Assembly: GCA_030657355.1 (NCBI GenBank)
Contig: CP131056.1
Span: 823,001-887,000 of the forward strand
Source of the DNA: Radicibacter daui
Lineage (GTDB): Bacteria; Pseudomonadota; Alphaproteobacteria; Radicibacterales; Radicibacteraceae
DNA length: 64,000 nt
Direction: 5' to 3'
Shown here: one piece after another, positions 256 through 14,847 of the stretch
How the letters are laid out: each line of letters starts with the position of its first letter
Numbering within the stretch: the first letter of the stretch is position 1
Notes under the pieces: model-generated
What the model was told of the DNA's origin: nothing
Database searches by the model: none
The model's input: the letters and a program-made list of their open reading frames with translations, nothing else
Program-made: the position numbers and the translations under genes

Positions 256-794
256 TTGGCTTCTAACCTTGTTCTTCAGGGTTCTTCTGAGCATTTATTA
301 TCCCAACCTTAAGGGCCCACGTACCATGGTAGATAATGGATAGCGGTCTGGGCAGCGGCTCTGTATTCCGTGCGTCGCCGAAATATGCGGCATTGCGCCG
401 CATATGGTGAGGAAGGACAAAGCAAACTAGGCTCAGTTGGATTAGCCCCAACGCCTTCCGTAACCTACGTATGATGCACGAACGCCCTTGCTCTCTGGCG
501 AAAGGGGAACTCCCGCCATCTGTATAGACAATATTTTTGAGGGTCCAAATGTGAAGATCGAGAGACAAGGACAGACGCTCGCTAGCGCTAGACTCTCTAT
601 GGTGCTGAGGAAGACCACGGCTATCCTACGACTGATTATGGCATGCCCCGAAGCGTTCTGATTGACGATTTGACGTGTCTTAATCCGCTCGGACCATAAA
701 TTTCGCGAGGATGAAACCAATAACCGTCTTGGAACTAGACAAGGTCGAAAGAGAAGGTCCCGTGTACGGCGCCGATCTCTTGATGCTGATGCGC
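256..794. other. Gene-poor stretch, no supported gene
   Basis: About 540 bases with lower GC than the surroundings. Open frames here (for example 263-568 and 442-861 on the minus strand) have poor composition, no ribosome site and no recognisable protein features. I see no RNA gene or clear repeat. Confidence 0.5.
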
Positions 795-1022
795 CTATAA
801 TTCGCCGAGATAAGCGGCAGCGCAGTTCTGTGCCTCGTCCGAACAGGTAAAGACGGACCACCGGGGGAACAGGGGGCAGATGGCGTGGACGCCGAAGAAC
901 TCCCCGCCAGGATGTATGATCCTGTAGACGGCGATGTCCAGATCAAGGTTGCCCTCCTCGGCCGGGACGAAGTCCGTCGCCCCTTCGACGACCGCTTTCG
1001 CACGCTCCATATCGAGGCGCAT
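795..1022 (-). CDS. Small hypothetical protein (75 aa)
   Basis: A 75-residue acidic protein (MRLDMERAKAVVEGATDF...) that I do not recognise. It contains several Cys and aromatic residues (ICPLFPRW, FTCSDEAQNC). It starts 11 bases after the stop of the small membrane protein gene on the same strand, with a GGTGG element between them, which suggests a two-gene operon. No signal peptide or membrane segment is seen. Evidence is limited to start context, operon spacing and plausible composition. Confidence 0.45.
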   Translation of the reverse strand: MRLDMERAKAVVEGATDFVPAEEGNLDLDIAVYRIIHPGGEFFGVHAICPLFPRWSVFTCSDEAQNCAAAYLGEL

Positions 1023-2760: not shown

Positions 2761-5340
2761 ATGTCGTTCTTCTGGCGTATTAACGCCGACGGATGGCACC
2801 TGCCTATTGCCTGGATAAATCAGCTTATGCGCACTTCCCCGTGGCGCCTTGCCACCTATGCCCTGATCGTGCTGGTCGGGGTTCTTATCGCTTTGCCCAA
2901 TATTCTAACACCCGGACAACTGGCCGCCCTGCCGGACTGGCTGCCGAAAAAACAGGTCACGCTCGGCCTCGATCTGCGTGGTGGTTCCCATCTCGTGCTT
3001 GAGGTGGATGCCGGGGCGCTTAAAGCCGCCCGCCTCAAGACCTTTGTCGAGGATGCACGCAAAAAGGCTGATGAAGAGGGTCTTGCCCTGAAGTCGGTGC
3101 GGGTTGACGGCGACACGGCGAGTTTTGTTCCCGGCGATCCGGCTGATCTTGACCGGATGACCACCGTGCTCAAGGGCATCAATGCCTGGGCCGGAGGATC
3201 GTCCTTCGGGCCCGGCGTCTATGAATTCGATGTTGCCGCCGCAGAGGGGGCCGTCACCGCCGCGCTGACGCAAGCCGGAGTGCATGCCCGGGTTTCTGCC
3301 GCAGTGGATCAAAGCCTGGAAATCGTGCGTCGCCGCGTAGACCAGGTGGGTGTGGCCGAGCCCACGGTCCAGCGGGTGGGCGCCGACCGTATTCTGGTGC
3401 AGCTTCCGGGCTTGCAGGACCCGACGCGCCTCAAGGCGCTGCTCGGTTCCACGGCGCAGATGAGCTTTCATCTGGTGGCCCCGGATTACGGGATGCGTGG
3501 CCGGGTGCCGGCCGGGGTGACCATGATGCCATCGGCCGATGGCAAGGTGCGGTATCCGGTGGAGAACCGAACCCTGCTCAGCGGCGACCGGCTGACGGAT
3601 GCCCAGGCCGGCTTTGACCAGCGCTCGGGTCAGCCCATCGTATCGTTCCGCTTCGACAGCCTCGGGACCAGGCAATTCGCCGATATCACCCGCAACAATC
3701 TGGGTCGCGCTTTCGCTGTCGTGCTCGACGGCAAAGTCTTGACGGCACCGGTTATCCGCGAGGCGATCACTGGCGGCTCGGGCCAGATCAGCGGCGACTT
3801 CACGGTGGCTGAAACGTCGGTGCTTTCGGCGTTGCTGCGTGCGGGTGCGCTGCCGGCACCCCTTACCGTGATCGAGCAGCGCAGCGTCGGCCCCGATCTT
3901 GGAGGTGATGCAATCCGCATGGGGCTGCTGACCGGCCTTGCGGGTTTCGCGCTGGTCGTGGCCTTCATGGTCATTCTCTACCGCGGCTGGGGCATGATCG
4001 CCAACCTTGCGCTTTGCCTGAATGTGATCCTCACAGTGGGAGCACTCGGCCTGATCGGCGCCACATTGACCTTGCCGGGCATCGCCGGCGTCATTCTCGG
4101 TATTGGTATGGCGGTGGACGCCAACATCCTCATCAATGAACGGATCAGGGAGGAGCTGAAGCGGGGGGCCAGTGTGCTGCAGGCGCTCGATGTCGGCTTC
4201 AGGCGGGCCTATTCCACCATTGTCGATTCCAATGTCACGACACTGATAGCGACGCTGCTGCTTTTCATGTTCGGCTCCGGCCCGGTCCGGGGCTTTGCCA
4301 TCACCATGATGCTGGGTATCGGCATTTCGATGTTCACCGCCGTCTCCGTGGTGCGGGTGCTGATGACGGAGATCGTGCGCCGGCGACGGCTGAAGACACT
4401 GGAATTCAAGCCGCTATTCAAGCTGGTGCCCGACAATCCGGAGATCTCCTTCATGAAGGCGCGGTTCTTCGGGATCGGGCTTTCCGCCATCCTGTCGCTC
4501 ACCTCTATCGCGCTCTTCTTTGCGCCGGGGCTGCGCTACGGGATCGACTTCAAGGGAGGCATCCAGATGGAGGTCGAGGCACCGCAGTCGCCCGACCTTG
4601 CCGCGTTGCGTGAAGGGCTTACCGGCCTCGGGCTCGGGGAAATCGCGTTGCAGAATATCGGCGGCAAGGACAGTGTGCTCATCCGCGCCGAACGCCAGCC
4701 GGGCGGCGAGGAGGCGCAGAACGGCGCGGTGGAAAAATTGCGCGCGGCGATTGGCGAGATCATTCCGGGAGCCAGCGTCGAAAGCACGGAAGTGGTGGGG
4801 CCGAAGGTGAGCGGCGAGCTGGCCAGCTCAGGCTTCATCGCCGTATCGCTCGCGATGGCGGCGATGCTTGGCTACATCTGGTGGCGGTTCGAGTGGCATT
4901 TTGCCGTCGGGGCCATCGCCACGCTCATCCTCGATACCACCAAGACGGTGGGCTTCTTTGCCCTGACGGGGCTGGATTTCAACCTCACCGCCATAGCCGC
5001 CTTGCTTACCATCATCGGCTATTCGGTCAATGACAAGGTGGTGGTCTATGACCGCATGCGCGAGAATTTGCGTCTTTATAAGTCGATGCCGCTGCGGCAG
5101 ATCATCGACAAGAGTATCAATGAGAGCCTGGCGCGCTGCATTTTCACCTCGACGACGACGTTCCTTTCCATGTTGCCGATGGCGGTGAGCGGGGGTGCGG
5201 CGGTGACGAGTTTTGCCATTCCGATGGTGTTCGGCATCCTCATCGCCACGAGTTCCTCAATTTTTATCGCCGCACCGATCCTGTTGTTTTTGGGGGACTG
5301 GAAGGCAAGGCGAAAAAAGGAGCCGTCAAAGGGTCGATAG
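2761..5340 (+). CDS. secDF: Fused protein translocase subunit SecDF
   Basis: SecD and SecF are fused in one 859-residue polypeptide of the RND superfamily. It uses the proton gradient to help pull secreted proteins out of the SecYEG channel on the periplasmic side. The SecD half (about 1-550) shows the D1 motif LGLDLRGG (68-75), the periplasmic P1 domain and GMAVDANILINERIREEL in the membrane part. The SecF half (about 565-859) shows GIDFKGG and NDKVVVYDRMREN. Twelve transmembrane segments are expected, six per half. No good ribosome site precedes ATG 2761; ATG 2827 (MRTSPWRLATYALIVLV...) puts the start next to the first helix and is an equally likely start. YajC is not adjacent. Confidence 0.95.
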   Translation: MSFFWRINADGWHLPIAWINQLMRTSPWRLATYALIVLVGVLIALPNILTPGQLAALPDWLPKKQVTLGLDLRGGSHLVLEVDAGALKAARLKTFVEDARKKADEEGLALKSVRVDGDTASFVPGDPADLDRMTTVLKGINAWAGGSSFGPGVYEFDVAAAEGAVTAALTQAGVHARVSAAVDQSLEIVRRRVDQVGVAEPTVQRVGADRILVQLPGLQDPTRLKALLGSTAQMSFHLVAPDYGMRGRVPAGVTMMPSADGKVRYPVENRTLLSGDRLTDAQAGFDQRSGQPIVSFRFDSLGTRQFADITRNNLGRAFAVVLDGKVLTAPVIREAITGGSGQISGDFTVAETSVLSALLRAGALPAPLTVIEQRSVGPDLGGDAIRMGLLTGLAGFALVVAFMVILYRGWGMIANLALCLNVILTVGALGLIGATLTLPGIAGVILGIGMAVDANILINERIREELKRGASVLQALDVGFRRAYSTIVDSNVTTLIATLLLFMFGSGPVRGFAITMMLGIGISMFTAVSVVRVLMTEIVRRRRLKTLEFKPLFKLVPDNPEISFMKARFFGIGLSAILSLTSIALFFAPGLRYGIDFKGGIQMEVEAPQSPDLAALREGLTGLGLGEIALQNIGGKDSVLIRAERQPGGEEAQNGAVEKLRAAIGEIIPGASVESTEVVGPKVSGELASSGFIAVSLAMAAMLGYIWWRFEWHFAVGAIATLILDTTKTVGFFALTGLDFNLTAIAALLTIIGYSVNDKVVVYDRMRENLRLYKSMPLRQIIDKSINESLARCIFTSTTTFLSMLPMAVSGGAAVTSFAIPMVFGILIATSSSIFIAAPILLFLGDWKARRKKEPSKGR

Positions 5341-5368
5341 CCCCGGGGCCTTGGAGGAGATTGCTTTG

Positions 5369-7081
5369 TCACACCGGGGCTGACACGAGCTCCAGCATGC
5401 AGCGGGCGATCTCCCTCTCTCCCATGATCGTGCGCGTGGCGCCGCATTTTTCGAGGTGCTCGACCTCGGCGTCGGAATGGGCGCGCGCGACGATCTCCAG
5501 ATCCGGGCAGGTGCTGCGTGCCTGTTGCACCGCCTGCCCGGCTTCGAAAGCCTGCGGAATAGCCACCACCAGATGGCGGGCAGCCGTCAGGTTGGCCGCA
5601 GACAATACCTGCGGATCAGCGGCATTGCCGAACACAACTTCTGCGCCGTCCAGTCGGGCGGCTTCCGCCGGTGTGGCGCGATCCTCGATCACCAGAAACG
5701 CCATTCCGGCCTGCTTCAGCCCGGCGCCCACGAGCGCTCCGACCCGGCCATAACCAATAAGCACCACATGATCCGAAAGGGTGCTGGGAACAAGGTCGGA
5801 GGCGGTTTCGTCCGACCCGGGAGAAGCGGGTTTATCCGCAGCGGTTTCGTTCGGTGGGGCGCCGGAGGCCGGCCGTGCGGAAGTGGCGTCTTCAAGCCCC
5901 GTCTTGCGGGCGATGATGGCAAACAGCAGTGGATTGACCAGAATGGAGAGGATCGCACCGGCGAGAACGAGGTCCCGCCCCATCTCCGGCAACAGGCCCG
6001 TATTGACCCCCAGACCCGCCAGAATGAACGAAAATTCGCCGATCTGTGCCAGGCTCGCCGCGATGGTCAGGGCGGTTCCTTTCGAGCGCCCGAAAGCAAG
6101 CACAATGAAATAGGCTGCCAGCGATTTACCGACGAGGATAATGGCGAGCGTCGCTGCCAGTTGCCACGGTGCCTCGATCAGAATCGCCGGATTGAACAAC
6201 ATGCCGACGGAGACGAAGAACAGGACGGCAAAGGCGTCCCGCAGCGGCAGTGTTTCTGCGGTTGCCTGCTGGCTGAGCTCGGACTCGCTTAGAATCATCC
6301 CGGCAAAGAAGGCACCGAGGGCAAAGGAGACGCCGAAGAGGGCAGCCGCGCCATAGGCGACGCAGATGGCAATCGCCAGAACCGACAGCCTGAACAGTTC
6401 CCGGGAACCAGTATGGGCCACCCAGTGCAGCAGCCACGGGATGACCCGGCGGCCGATCACCAGCATGATGATGACGAAAGCCGCGACCTTGGCAAAGGTG
6501 ACCAGCAGCACGCCTGCGATCCCCAGGCCAAACGGCCCCGCATCAACGGAGGTTCCCTTGACGGCTCCGGCAATGGCCGGAAGCACGACCAAGGCCAGCA
6601 CCATCGCCAGATCCTCGACGATCAGCCAGCCGACCGCGATCCGCCCCCGTTCCGTCAGGACAAGGCGCCGCTCCTGGAGTGCTCGCAGCAGCACCACGGT
6701 GCTGGCAACGGAGAGAGCGAGGCCGAAGATCGCCCCTCCGGCAAGGGACCAGCCCAGCAGCGTGGCCAACCCCATGCCGAGAGCGGTGGCAATCACGATC
6801 TGGACGATGGCGCCAGGAACGGCGAGAGCTTTGACCGACAGCAGATCCTTGAAGGAAAAGTGCAGCCCAACGCCAAACATCAACAGGATGACGCCTACTT
6901 CCGCCAGCTCGTTGGCCAGGGTCTGATCAGCAACAAAACCGGGCGTAAAGGGGCCAACCAGAACTCCGGCCAGCAGATAACCCACCAGCGGGGAGATGCG
7001 CAGTTTATGAGCCAGCGCTCCAAACACGAAGGCAAGGCCGAACCCGGCAACGAGCATGGTGATAAGGGAACTGCTATGCAT
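5369..7081 (-). CDS. Monovalent cation:proton antiporter-2 (KefB/YbaL-type)
   Basis: CPA2-family antiporter, probably exchanging K+ (or Na+) for H+ across the inner membrane. The N-terminal ~400 residues form 12-13 hydrophobic segments (for example LVGYLLAGVLVGPFTPGF, GVILLMFGVGLHFSF, VEDLAMVLALVVLP). A linker rich in Ala/Pro/Thr leads to a C-terminal RCK (TrkA-N) domain with Rossmann motif GYGRVG, which would bind a nucleotide and gate the channel. ATG 7081 (MHSSSLITMLVAGFG) was preferred over 7171 because it begins just before helix 1; the product is then 570 aa. The domain order matches E. coli YbaL/KefB. It is convergent with secDF. Confidence 0.88.
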   Translation of the reverse strand: MHSSSLITMLVAGFGLAFVFGALAHKLRISPLVGYLLAGVLVGPFTPGFVADQTLANELAEVGVILLMFGVGLHFSFKDLLSVKALAVPGAIVQIVIATALGMGLATLLGWSLAGGAIFGLALSVASTVVLLRALQERRLVLTERGRIAVGWLIVEDLAMVLALVVLPAIAGAVKGTSVDAGPFGLGIAGVLLVTFAKVAAFVIIMLVIGRRVIPWLLHWVAHTGSRELFRLSVLAIAICVAYGAAALFGVSFALGAFFAGMILSESELSQQATAETLPLRDAFAVLFFVSVGMLFNPAILIEAPWQLAATLAIILVGKSLAAYFIVLAFGRSKGTALTIAASLAQIGEFSFILAGLGVNTGLLPEMGRDLVLAGAILSILVNPLLFAIIARKTGLEDATSARPASGAPPNETAADKPASPGSDETASDLVPSTLSDHVVLIGYGRVGALVGAGLKQAGMAFLVIEDRATPAEAARLDGAEVVFGNAADPQVLSAANLTAARHLVVAIPQAFEAGQAVQQARSTCPDLEIVARAHSDAEVEHLEKCGATRTIMGEREIARCMLELVSAPV

Positions 7082-10875: not shown

Positions 10876-12090
10876 ATGGCCCCCTATCGTGGAGATACCG
10901 CTCCTGCCGCAGCCGATCCTGCTGTCAGCACCGGAGCCCTGCTGCCGCCCGATGCCGAGGGGATAAGCCATGTCCTGCCACGCCTTGCCGATGCGCGCCG
11001 CCTGATCATCAAGATCGGCTCGGCCCTGCTGGTGGATGGCAAGACGCACCAGATCAGGCGCGAATGGCTGGATGCGCTGGCGGACGATGTCGCCGCGCTC
11101 AAGGCCCGCGGGGTGGAGGTTGCCATCGTCACCTCCGGCTCCATCGCCGTCGGGCGGGAGCATCTGGGCCTTACCGGCCGGGTGCTGAAGCTGGAGGAAA
11201 AGCAGGCTGCCGCCGCCACCGGCCAGATTCGCCTTGCCCATGCCTATCAGGAAACGCTCGCCCGCCACGGCATCACCGTGGCGCAGGTGCTGCTGACCAT
11301 TGACGATACCGAGGAGCGGCGCCGCCACCTCAATGCGCGCGCCACCATCTCCACCCTGCTCGGTCTCGGCGCCGTGCCGATCATCAACGAGAACGATACG
11401 GTCGCGACCTCGGAGATTCGCTTTGGCGATAATGATCGCCTCGCCGCCCGCGTCGGGCAGATGATCTCCGCCGATACGCTCGTTCTGCTGTCGGATATCG
11501 ACGGGCTCTACACCGCCGATCCGCGCAAGGATCCGGATGCCCGCCACCTGCCGGTCATCCAGATGCTGACGCCGGAGATCGAGGCGATGGCCGGCGAGCC
11601 GCCGCCCGGTTACAGCTCCGGCGGCATGGTCACCAAGATCGCCGCCGCCCGTATCGCCACGGCTGCCGGCAGCCGCATGCTGATCGCCAATGGCCACCGC
11701 ATGAACCCGCTCTCCGCGCTGGAGACGGGGGAGGCGAAATGTAGCTGGTTTCTGCCGCAGGCCAACCCGCTCACCGCCCGCAAGCGCTGGATCGCCGGCC
11801 ATGTCAGCCCAGCCGGTTCGGTGGTGGTGGATGACGGTGCCGTCAAGGCGCTCGCCGCCGGCAAGTCGCTGTTGCCCGCCGGTGTGGTGGCGGTGGAAGG
11901 CGGTTTCGAGCGCGGCGATGCCATCCTCGTGCGCAGCCGCTCCGGCCAGGTGTTGGGGCGCGGCCTCAGCGCCTATAGCGCCGCCGATGCCCGTCTCCTC
12001 CTTGGCCGCCGCTCCGGCGAGATCGAAGGTCTTCTCGGCTATCGCGGCCGCGACGAGCTCATCCACCGCGACGACCTGGTGCTGGATTGA
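10876..12090 (+). CDS. proB: Glutamate 5-kinase
   Basis: Catalyses the first step of proline synthesis, ATP-dependent phosphorylation of glutamate. An amino-acid-kinase domain spans ~35-290 ([60 protein letters not shown]), followed by a C-terminal PUA domain (from about [20 protein letters not shown]). ATG 10876 was chosen over 10765, which would add a low-complexity leader; a GGAA element lies just upstream. At 404 aa it is longer than E. coli ProB because of an N-terminal tail of ~30 residues. proA lies 4.2 kb downstream, separated by inserted genes. Confidence 0.93.
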
Positions 12091-12095
12091 AATTT

Positions 12096-12118
12096 CCTTC
12101 CCCATGAATGGGGAAAGG
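12096..12118. repeat. Short palindrome after proB
   Basis: CCTTCCCC/GGGGAAAGG flank a 6-base loop just after the proB stop. It has no T-tract on the plus strand. Its TTCCCC...GGGGAA arms resemble the hairpins at the ends of the repeat at 14852-14983, so it may be a remnant of the same intergenic repeat family, or a processed 3' end. Confidence 0.4.
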
Positions 12119-12241
12119 GCAGGCCGCACAGCTTTCGGGCATCCTGCCCATTTTCTGGCGCAGCGTTTTGGATGGCGAAACGCCCAAGTCCTTGAGAATT
12201 CAGTGTCCCGTCTCTGGCACGCCCGTTGCTGATAAGGAAAA

Positions 12242-12296
12242 GAGAGTAGAAGCGGTCAGGGCTGCCCGCCTTTGGTGGAGCCGTCCGGGACATTGC
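12242..12296 (+). promoter_or_regulatory. Candidate NMT1-type (xanthine) riboswitch, copy 1
   Basis: A 55-base leader element ends 34 bases before the deaminase start. It carries GAGTAGAAGC (12242-12251), GTCAG (12253-12257) and CATTGCTC (12289-12296). GAG/CTC can form a closing helix and GGC/GCC plus CCGCC/GGTGG an inner hairpin, leaving two internal loops that hold the conserved bases. The same blocks in the same order recur at 13751-13809 before the next gene, while the inner hairpin differs in sequence but stays paired. Recurrence before two adjacent, apparently purine-related genes suggests a ligand-binding RNA; the layout agrees with what I recall of the NMT1 class that senses xanthine and uric acid. 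This is not verified against a covariance model. Confidence 0.5.
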
Positions 12297-12330
12297 TCGG
12301 CAAACGATCCCTTTATGATCGAGGTGTCCG

Positions 12331-13719
12331 GTGCCGCCTTCTTCTTTGCCTTCTGGCGATTTTCTCGTGACCAATGCCGTCGGCATCCTCACCGGCCTTC
12401 CCGGTGTAGCGGCCCGTACCAGCGGCGCCATCCGTGTAATCGCCGGCAAGATCGCCGAAATCGGGGCTCTTTCGCCCCGATCCGGCGAGAAGATTGTGGA
12501 TGCTTCCGGCTGCGTGGTAACGCCCGGTCTCATCAACACCCATCACCATCTCTTCCAGAGTGTGCTGAAGGCGATTCCGGAGGGGCTGAACGAGGCACTC
12601 GCCCGCTGGCTGCGCCTTGTGCCCTATAGCTACTGGCACAGGCTGGATGAGGAGGCGATGCGCCTTGCCGCCACCATTGGCCTTGCCGAACTGGCGCTCT
12701 CCGGAGCCACCACGGTGGCGGACCATCACTACATCTATTCCCCGCATTATGATTTTGACCCCAACGAGATCCTGTTCGAGGTGGCGGAAAAGTTCGGCCT
12801 GCGCTTTGTGCTGGCGCGCGGCGGGGCTACCAAGGGGCGCAATTTTGATGATGGCCGCTCCATCCCGCTGCCGACAGAGCCGGTAGCGCAGATGCTGAAG
12901 GCGGTGGAGGCGGCGGCAAAGCGCTGGCATGACCCGGCGCCGGACGCCATGCGGCGGGTGGTAATGGCCCTGACGACACCGACCTTCTCGCTGGAAGAGG
13001 CAGAGCTGAAGGAGATTGCCGCCGGTGCCCGTGCCATGGGCCTCCGGCTGCATTCTCACCTGTCTGAAAACATGGACTATGTCGACTACACGCTCGGCCG
13101 CTACGGCAAGCGCCCGGTCCATTGGCTCGCCGGGCACGACTGGCTGGGGCCGGATGTGTGGTTTGCCCATCTGGTGGAGTGCGATCCTTCCGAAGTGGCA
13201 CTGCTGGCAGAAACCGGCACCGGCATGGCGCATTGCCCGCAGGCCAATGCCCGTCTCGGCTCCGGCATCGCCCCGGCCGATGTCCTCTTCAAGGCCGGCG
13301 GCGCGGTTTCCCTTGCGGTGGATGGCGCAGCGGCCAACGAGGCGGCGGATATGATAAGCGCGCTCTACAGCGCCTTTTCCCTGCACCGCGCCGGCAAGGG
13401 CGTCAGCGCGGTTGCGGCGGAGGAGGTGCTCAGCTGGGCGACAGCCGGCGGCGCGCGGGTGCTGGGCATGGAGGCTATCGGCACCATCGAGCCCGGCAAG
13501 GCGGCTGATCTCGCGCTCTTCGATCTCTCCCACCCGCGTTATCTCGGCCAGCATGACCGGCTGGTGGGGCCGGTCATCTCCGGCGGCGCAGCGTTTCTGA
13601 AGGCAAGTTTTGTCGCCGGCCGCCCGGTGGTGGAAGAGGGCCGCATCCCCTGGCTCGATATGGAGCAGCTGGCCGCCGATGCCGTGCGGGTTACCGCCCG
13701 TATCGCGGCGGCAGCCTGA
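12331..13719 (+). CDS. 8-oxoguanine deaminase-type amidohydrolase
   Basis: Metal-dependent amidohydrolase of the TRZ/ATZ-guanine deaminase group, best match 8-oxoguanine deaminase (8-oxoguanine to uric acid plus ammonia). Features of the 462-aa protein are metal ligands H71-x-H73 in TPGLINTHHH, a conserved loop GATTVADHHY, a further ligand in HSHLSE (~240), and an Asp near residue 330 in SLAVDGAAANEA. The start is a GTG at 12331 with GAGGTG just upstream. Related enzymes act on hydroxyatrazines or N-formimino compounds, so the substrate is inferred. The candidate xanthine-responsive leader in front and the oxygenase behind support a purine substrate. The gene lies on the plus strand between proB and proA. 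Confidence 0.78.
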   Translation: MPPSSLPSGDFLVTNAVGILTGLPGVAARTSGAIRVIAGKIAEIGALSPRSGEKIVDASGCVVTPGLINTHHHLFQSVLKAIPEGLNEALARWLRLVPYSYWHRLDEEAMRLAATIGLAELALSGATTVADHHYIYSPHYDFDPNEILFEVAEKFGLRFVLARGGATKGRNFDDGRSIPLPTEPVAQMLKAVEAAAKRWHDPAPDAMRRVVMALTTPTFSLEEAELKEIAAGARAMGLRLHSHLSENMDYVDYTLGRYGKRPVHWLAGHDWLGPDVWFAHLVECDPSEVALLAETGTGMAHCPQANARLGSGIAPADVLFKAGGAVSLAVDGAAANEAADMISALYSAFSLHRAGKGVSAVAAEEVLSWATAGGARVLGMEAIGTIEPGKAADLALFDLSHPRYLGQHDRLVGPVISGGAAFLKASFVAGRPVVEEGRIPWLDMEQLAADAVRVTARIAAAA

Positions 13720-13750
13720 AGGGCAGGGCGGCAGATGGTTTCGCAAATCC

Positions 13751-13809
13751 GGAGTAGAAGCAGTCAGCGCGGCGGGCAGAATGTTTCCCCCCGCGTCGGT
13801 CATTGCTCC
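13751..13809 (+). promoter_or_regulatory. Candidate NMT1-type (xanthine) riboswitch, copy 2
   Basis: The second copy of the leader lies 55 bases before the oxygenase start. GGAG (13751-13754) pairs with CTCC (13806-13809) as the closing helix; GTAGAAGC, GTCAGCG and CATTGCTC are conserved relative to copy 1. The inner stem is GCGGG (13772-13776) with CCCGC (13790-13794), different in sequence from copy 1 but again able to pair, which is covariation-like support for an RNA fold. Confidence 0.5.
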
Positions 13810-13863
13810 TTCAACCGGCCAAAGGTTTTGGTGCCTGCGGCCACCCCGATGGAGACGTTACCC

Positions 13864-14847
13864 ATGACGACTGACATGAAAGAAGTGGCGCGCGAGCGCA
13901 CCTATGGCGGCCTCGGCGGCACCCGCGAACGCTCGGTGCCCCGCATCGACATGAGCGATTTTGAAGCCCGCAAGGCCGGGATCGCCGACCAGCTGTGGGC
14001 GGCGGCCACCGAAATCGGCTTTTTCCAGCTCATCAACCACGGCATTCCGCAAAGCCAGATCGACGAAGCCTTTCTGCTGTGCGAGCGATTCTTCGATCTG
14101 CCGCAGGAGGTGAAAGCCGGCATGCCGCTCATCCGCGGCACCAATGCCGGCTGGGAATATATGTCCCAGGTGCGCCCCTCCACCGGCACGGCGGATCGCA
14201 AGGAGAGTTACCAGATCACCCTGCCGCGCATGAAGGACCTCTGGCCGGGCGAAGCACTACCGGGCTTCAAGGCCATCATGCTGGCTTTCGAGCGGGCCAA
14301 CTGGGCGCTCGGCATGAAGGTGCTCTCCTGCTTTGCCCTGAAACTCGGTTTTGCCGAGGATGCCTTTACCGACTGGCATGATCCGCTGTCGCCGGAATAC
14401 CAGTCGACCTTGCGCCTTTTGCATTACCTGCCGATGGAAAATGCCAAGCCTGAGGATTTTTCGGCCTGGCGGGCGGGCGCCCATACGGATTTTGACTGCC
14501 TGACCTTGCTGCACCAGCGCCCCGGCCAGGGCGGGTTGCAGCTCTGCCCGGGCAAGGACGCGGCGAGCGGTGAACTGGAATGGACGGATGTGGAACCGGC
14601 GCCAGGCCTCATCACCTGCAATATCGGCGACATGCTGATGCGCTGGAGCGATGACCAGCTGCTCTCTACCCTTCACCGCGTGCGCATGCCGCATCCGGAT
14701 GAATATCTGGGCCCGCGTTATTCCATGCCCTTCTTCTGCCAGGCCAACCGCGACGCGGTGATCGAAGGGCCGGGCAAGCTCTACGACCCCATCACCGCCC
14801 ATGATTACCTGCAGCAGCGCATCGCGGCCAATTTCGCGAAGAAGTGA
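13864..14847 (+). CDS. Isopenicillin N synthase-like Fe(II)/2-oxoglutarate oxygenase
   Basis: A 327-aa member of the DIOX_N / 2OG-FeII_Oxy family of soluble hydroxylases. The N-terminal part shows the family motif IGFFQLINHGIP. The iron facial triad is visible as H206-x-D208 in AHTDFD and a distal His near 270 in STLHRVRMP; the 2-oxoglutarate-binding Arg is in RYSMPFF (~285). ATG 13864 has GGAGA upstream; a start at 13735 would read through the leader RNA. The substrate is unknown. Its own copy of the purine-type leader and the adjacent 8-oxoguanine deaminase suggest a role in oxidising a purine or a breakdown product, but this is inference. Confidence 0.85.
   Translation: MTTDMKEVARERTYGGLGGTRERSVPRIDMSDFEARKAGIADQLWAAATEIGFFQLINHGIPQSQIDEAFLLCERFFDLPQEVKAGMPLIRGTNAGWEYMSQVRPSTGTADRKESYQITLPRMKDLWPGEALPGFKAIMLAFERANWALGMKVLSCFALKLGFAEDAFTDWHDPLSPEYQSTLRLLHYLPMENAKPEDFSAWRAGAHTDFDCLTLLHQRPGQGGLQLCPGKDAASGELEWTDVEPAPGLITCNIGDMLMRWSDDQLLSTLHRVRMPHPDEYLGPRYSMPFFCQANRDAVIEGPGKLYDPITAHDYLQQRIAANFAKK

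Follow-up and report, generated by a model that had tools for sequence, protein, structure and literature searches.

In the window, the 64-kb stretch of the Radicibacter daui genome analysed here, an amidohydrolase gene (hereafter the deaminase gene) is followed on the same strand by a gene for a pcbC-like Fe(II)/2-oxoglutarate oxygenase, and an aptamer of the xanthine (NMT1) riboswitch class lies directly upstream of each (Table 1); both genes are of kinds listed as partners of the published class. The deaminase ORF scored 644.3 bits on the NF009059/PRK12393 model, passing its cut-off of 543, and 398.7 bits on the NF006055/PRK08203 model for 8-oxoguanine deaminase, below the cut-off of 532. 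The purine-type amidohydrolase and the Fe/2OG oxygenase proposed in an earlier, sequence-only reading of this DNA are retained, with a PRK12393-type enzyme in place of the 8-oxoguanine deaminase named there. The nearest PDB chain of the deaminase is 2paj, a 'putative cytosine/guanine deaminase', which we take to be the isoxanthopterin deaminase structure. The HTD, H and RYS motifs of the oxygenase were read directly from its translation, and thymine dioxygenase is among its closest solved relatives. Given that the genome encodes a xanthine dehydrogenase (TIGR02965, 1226 bits), the oxygenase is not a substitute for that enzyme; of 40 oxygenase-bearing genomes, 37 had a TIGR02965 match over its cut-off.

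Table 1. Position of the aptamers, genes and predicted regulatory features within the window
Feature	Position	Strand	Basis or detail
Predicted sigma-54 promoter	12215–12230	+	12/12 match
Xanthine (NMT1) aptamer copy 1, operon-leader subtype	12239–12303	+	RF03054 score
Copy 1 P1	12244–12248/12294–12298		
Copy 1 J1	12249–12254		
Copy 1 P2a	12255–12257/12289–12291		
Possible copy 1 expression platform	12299–12335	+	GGCA 12299–12302 / UGCC 12332–12335 across GTG start; folding, aptamer enforced
Deaminase Shine-Dalgarno GAGG	12321–12324	+	Within copy 1 platform
Amidohydrolase (PRK12393 type, guanine/isoxanthopterin deaminase-like)	12331–13719	+	GTG start, model scores
Xanthine (NMT1) aptamer copy 2, oxygenase-leader subtype	13747–13813	+	RF03054 score
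Copy 2 P1	13751–13756/13804–13809		GGAGTA/TGCTCC
Copy 2 J1	13757–13762		
Hairpin (P3), P1 3' strand to Shine-Dalgarno	13817–13842	+	Spacer fold -13.6 kcal/mol, z -1.6
Oxygenase Shine-Dalgarno GGAG	13851–13854	+	Complementary to CUCC 13806–13809 of P1; folding
Fe(II)/2-oxoglutarate oxygenase (DIOX_N + 2OG-FeII_Oxy, pcbC-like)	13864–14847	+	Domain matches

The whole window was scanned with cmscan against 4227 Rfam families. Both elements matched RF03054 (Xanthine riboswitch aptamer, NMT1 RNA) above its gathering score of 36, copy 1 with 49.7 bits (E 4.9e-8) and copy 2 with 51.2 bits (E 1.9e-8), and the only other matches were two tRNAs. This is the covariance-model check that the sequence-only reading had proposed for its two elements. 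The sequence blocks it had seen as shared are present in both, GAGTAGAAGC at 12244–12253 and 13752–13761 and CATTGCTC at 12291–12298 and 13801–13808, and the E-values place their recurrence far beyond chance. Its distances of 55 and 57 bases from GAG to CTC are exact, and the inner hairpins are, as it said, unlike in sequence and each able to pair; its coordinates for copy 1 (12242–12296) were about 2 bases early. The 5.06-Mb genome contains exactly two RF03054 copies, both in the window, and none was found in 14 control genomes. In a search of 96 genomes from the same bacterial class, each standing for one family, the aptamer was found only in the window genome, a sample with little bearing on prevalence. 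When aligned to the published crystal numbering, all xanthine-contacting nucleotides (A6, A9, G10, C11-G35-A39, U40 and U41) are kept in both copies. Copy 1 has G12 and A37; in copy 2, position 12 is A and P2a contains a U14.U37 mismatch (13764/13800).

Relatives of the locus and their leaders

The locus was compared with 80 alphaproteobacterial loci encoding close relatives of the oxygenase. RF03054 was detected in 75 of 79 genomes picked for carrying a close oxygenase (46 of 49 in a first set and 29 of 33 in a second, in which three negatives of the first were searched again), mostly in two copies. A recurrent gene order runs aptamer A, substrate-binding protein, ABC ATPase, permease, deaminase, aptamer B and oxygenase; the deaminase gene is absent from some loci. 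With those of the window, 126 aptamer copies were collected, and core alignment was possible for 124 of them.

Covariation was assessed in 104 regular copies from the relatives and the window, with the register of P2b (17–33) taken from the Rfam alignment. Positions 18–32 pair in 97 of the 104 copies (46 GC, 33 CG, 8 AT, 7 TA and 3 GT), against a mean of 46 and a maximum of 63 in shuffles, while 19–31 pair in 94 of 101 (shuffled maximum 80) and 20–30 in 92 of 98 (shuffled maximum 79). The outer P1 pair also exceeds every shuffle. Sliding one P2b strand by a single base abolishes the covariation, and the signal is thus limited to the right register. Covariation in orthologous leaders, on which the sequence-only reading had let its proposal depend, is therefore present in P2b and in the outer P1 pair; together with the model scores and the published gene partners, it bears out the assignment to the xanthine-sensing NMT1 class.

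The relatives vary in several respects. Two aptamers in tandem, 220–330 bases apart and with one oxygenase gene downstream, occur in four Roseomonas loci and one Chachezhania locus (L011 and L014, both at 3624–3935; L020, 3642–3928; L023, 3679–3958; L061, 3603–3981), and L011 has no obvious gene between them. The operon-leader aptamers of L051, L053, L054, L055, L063 and L070, from several Rhodobacterales and Stappiaceae, are degenerate: they score about 29–33 bits, short of the gathering score, have U or C rather than G at position 35, and lack C15. They may represent a divergent or weakened form. In L009, the operon is flanked on one side by a deaminase-like gene (324–950, minus strand; TadA/guanine deaminase type by eye) and on the other by a second 2OG oxygenase gene (5050–6033, plus strand).

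In the operon leaders of L004, L008, L009, L013, L029 and others, a leader ORF is seen, with a start codon and a CCG-CUUCU-like stretch recurring mostly 27–35 nt past aptamer A. Its frame often stops where the binding-protein gene starts or is fused to that gene, and the peptide sequence is not conserved among relatives. In 14 of 34 leaders, against an expectation of 2.3, the opening codons complement the J1 strand of the leader's own aptamer, and pairing between J1 and the start reached 0.556 in the ligand-free fold versus 0.270 with shuffled codons (P 8e-6). The window deaminase starts with GTGCCGCCTTCT at +33 from aptamer 1, and its N-terminus is about 8 residues longer than in orthologues, which start MTDFL or MTSFL. 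The transporter genes found between copy 1 and the deaminase in relatives are absent from the window; elsewhere in the genome, the best match to a relative's binding protein has 29% identity, and no close orthologue was found. Given a deaminase that begins at the leader-ORF start, its additional residues and the lack of a close binding-protein orthologue, the simplest reading would be that the transporter genes were lost and the deaminase became fused to the leader start.

Predicted transcript and expression platforms

The predicted sigma-54 promoter, TGGCACGCCCGTTGCT, was scored against the consensus TGGCAC-N5-TTGCW, with GG and GC at fixed spacing. It is the only perfect site in the window, where 0.09 would be expected, and one of five in the genome, against none in the reversed control. 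The transcript is predicted to begin near 12241, some 3 bases upstream of the GAG in aptamer 1. In relatives, sites matching at least 10 of 12 positions lie 12–15 nt before the aptamer in 26 of 45 transporter-operon leaders versus 0 of 77 oxygenase leaders. A search of 12090–13880 revealed no sigma-70-like site. The GAG of copy 2 follows the deaminase stop by 32 bases (mostly 10–63 bases in relatives), and given this short gap, the lack of a sigma-70-like site and the lack of room for a promoter, copy 2 most likely lies inside the operon transcript and would most simply act on translation. Under this scheme, the sigma-54 promoter would produce a transcript beginning at aptamer 1, which would control translation of the deaminase, and aptamer 2 would separately control translation of the oxygenase. 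A sigma-54 start at aptamer 1 would also link the system to nitrogen limitation, with purines serving as a nitrogen source.

The direction of control was approached by folding, with a program that takes in neither ligand nor tertiary contacts. In window copy 2, the Shine-Dalgarno sequence pairs with the P1 3' strand at 0.67 in the ligand-free fold versus 0.06 with a shuffled spacer, and it is free at 0.11 without the aptamer and 0.31 with the aptamer enforced. Oxygenase leaders with spacers of 20–60 nt contain a hairpin of varied sequence between CUCC and GGAG (mean z -2.45). Across 20 dissimilar oxygenase leaders, ligand-free pairing of the Shine-Dalgarno sequence with the P1 3' strand was 0.560, compared with 0.155 after dinucleotide shuffling, 0.399 with the flanks shuffled and 0.178 with the hairpin shuffled. 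Accessibility of the Shine-Dalgarno sequence in the leaders with 20–60 nt spacers was 0.185 in the ligand-free fold (0.382 in shuffles) and 0.484 with the aptamer enforced (0.450 in shuffles). Leaders with spacers shorter than 20 nt showed no such pairing effect. An extended complementarity between Shine-Dalgarno and anti-Shine-Dalgarno sequences (e.g. CUCC-UUUG/CAAA-C-GGAG), striking by eye, was rejected after failing a between-species flank swap test (P 0.36).

In the absence of ligand, the hairpin, a conserved feature of oxygenase leaders, would draw CUCC in the P1 3' strand of copy 2 close to the GGAG Shine-Dalgarno sequence, and the two would pair. Since this pairing excludes P1, ligand should, by stabilizing P1, release GGAG and free the ribosome site, turning the oxygenase ON. 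That copy 2 is such a switch, activated by xanthine, is a tentative proposal to which we give slightly less than an even chance, as it is opposed by the failed swap test, the null result for short spacers and the OFF behaviour of the sole class member tested.

Nearly an even chance is also given to both copies being ordinary OFF switches, in which ligand-bound P1 and neighbouring structure hide the ribosome site and xanthine shuts both genes. This agrees with the reporter assay on the H. intermedia member, the only one tested, which showed OFF regulation, and with the platform survey of the same authors (PMC7373994). It also agrees with the aptamer-enforced fold of copy 1, in which the Shine-Dalgarno sequence and start are paired (Shine-Dalgarno free at 0.03). 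GGCA of the possible copy 1 platform pairs with the start at 0.75. The start region of copy 1 is partly paired in both the ligand-free and the aptamer-enforced states; folding does not settle its direction, and copy 1 would be an OFF switch by published precedent. Against two OFF switches, shuffling raises the accessibility of the Shine-Dalgarno sequence in oxygenase leaders with 20–60 nt spacers for the ligand-free fold alone, and the tested member headed a multi-gene operon rather than a lone oxygenase. It is quite unlikely that the riboswitches act chiefly on transcription, by intrinsic or Rho-dependent termination: a weak terminator-like match (12321–12340) lies just past aptamer 1, but none lies between aptamer 2 and the oxygenase start, and the published survey contains almost no terminators (PMC7373994); a role for Rho need not show in the sequence.

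Two aptamer subtypes and their ligand

Subtypes were compared in 48 genomes with two alignable copies, which share descent, so that the counts are not independent trials. Distal copies have G12 in 48 of 48 cases and a 5' G closing P1 in none, while proximal copies have this 5' G in 48 of 48 and GGAGUA/UGCUCC in nearly all. A nucleotide other than G at position 12 is found in 39 of 48 proximal versus 0 distal copies, and U37 in 36 of 48 versus 1. The two features are linked: among the 124 alignable copies, 48 have both, 70 have neither and 6 are mixed. Of the window copies, the first belongs to the distal type and the second to the proximal; they represent two long-separated subtypes maintained together in 48 genomes, which rules out a recent duplication of the riboswitch. 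What had been read as one structured leader repeated before linked genes is indeed two riboswitches, but of two subtypes with different expression platforms rather than equivalent repeats.

NMT1 RNA binds xanthine with a KD of about 3.7 uM and urate with 25 uM (PMC7373994). In the crystal structure (PMC8266621), positions 12, 34 and 37 make no contact with xanthine, yet in another class member, the G12-to-A change lowered affinity 7-fold and C34-to-G 3–4-fold. An altered affinity of the oxygenase-leader subtype is therefore plausible, an altered ligand less so. The A12 of copy 2, by analogy with that 7-fold loss, and its U14.U37 mismatch may count against a working copy 2. Drift of the oxygenase-leader subtype to another ligand (e.g. 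urate or the oxygenase's own product), with copy 1 sensing xanthine, might account for the concerted core differences at positions 12 and 37 and their maintenance in parallel with the other subtype, but it is very unlikely given that the differing positions (12, 34 and 37) do not touch xanthine in the crystal and that all ligand contacts are kept. That the copies are inactive remnants is scarcely credible: the operon has been rearranged, with the relatives' transporter genes missing, but both copies score highly with intact pockets, and both genes are open with their motifs intact.

Direction aside, we regard the two elements as working xanthine riboswitches of one purine operon that act on translation (probability about 0.9). 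Family membership, covariation, the parallel upkeep of the subtypes and the placement of the promoter were computed here, and xanthine (more weakly urate) as ligand and control of translation would follow by analogy with the family. It is possible, at somewhat less than even odds, that copy 2 is an old second subtype whose P1 3' strand doubles as anti-Shine-Dalgarno sequence, forming an ON switch for the same ligand within an operon led by the other subtype. If so, the ON response would directly suggest that the oxygenase works on the ligand or its product, consuming xanthine or a close product, and the locus would offer a natural example of two sensors for one metabolite, wired differently, within a single transcript. 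Should both copies be OFF switches, the locus is an ordinary, well-preserved member of the class.

Comparison with known systems

The class, its ligand and its gene partners (pcbC-like oxygenase and PRK12393 amidohydrolase) were already known from Yu and Breaker 2020 (PMC7373994), who noted that the functions of NMT1-associated oxygenases were not established and saw no oxidized-purine-degrading genes under the class. The subtype split and the sigma-54 start are added here by computation, and from the leaders we infer the leader-ORF fusion and the ON-type platform; the main text of PMC7373994 describes neither subtypes nor a sigma-54 promoter, and a literature search on ON-type xanthine riboswitches returned nothing useful. 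The window agrees with RF03054 (PMC7373994; crystal structure, PMC8266621) in consensus, pocket nucleotides, P1/P2a/P2b layout and gene partners, and differs in having two subtypes in one operon, with A12 and U14.U37 in copy 2. The copy 2 platform, which allows pairing between the P1 3' strand and the Shine-Dalgarno sequence, is predicted to be ON, in contrast to the OFF regulation of the tested member. Variants of the guanine riboswitch sense xanthine too (PMC9295807), but they derive from the guanine riboswitch, whereas the window matches RF03054 and no purine riboswitch. The NMT1 locus of H. intermedia S1 (PMC7373994) likewise has two nearby NMT1 elements, with pcbC among its genes; its elements are in opposing orientations, whereas those of the window lie on one strand and in one predicted transcript.
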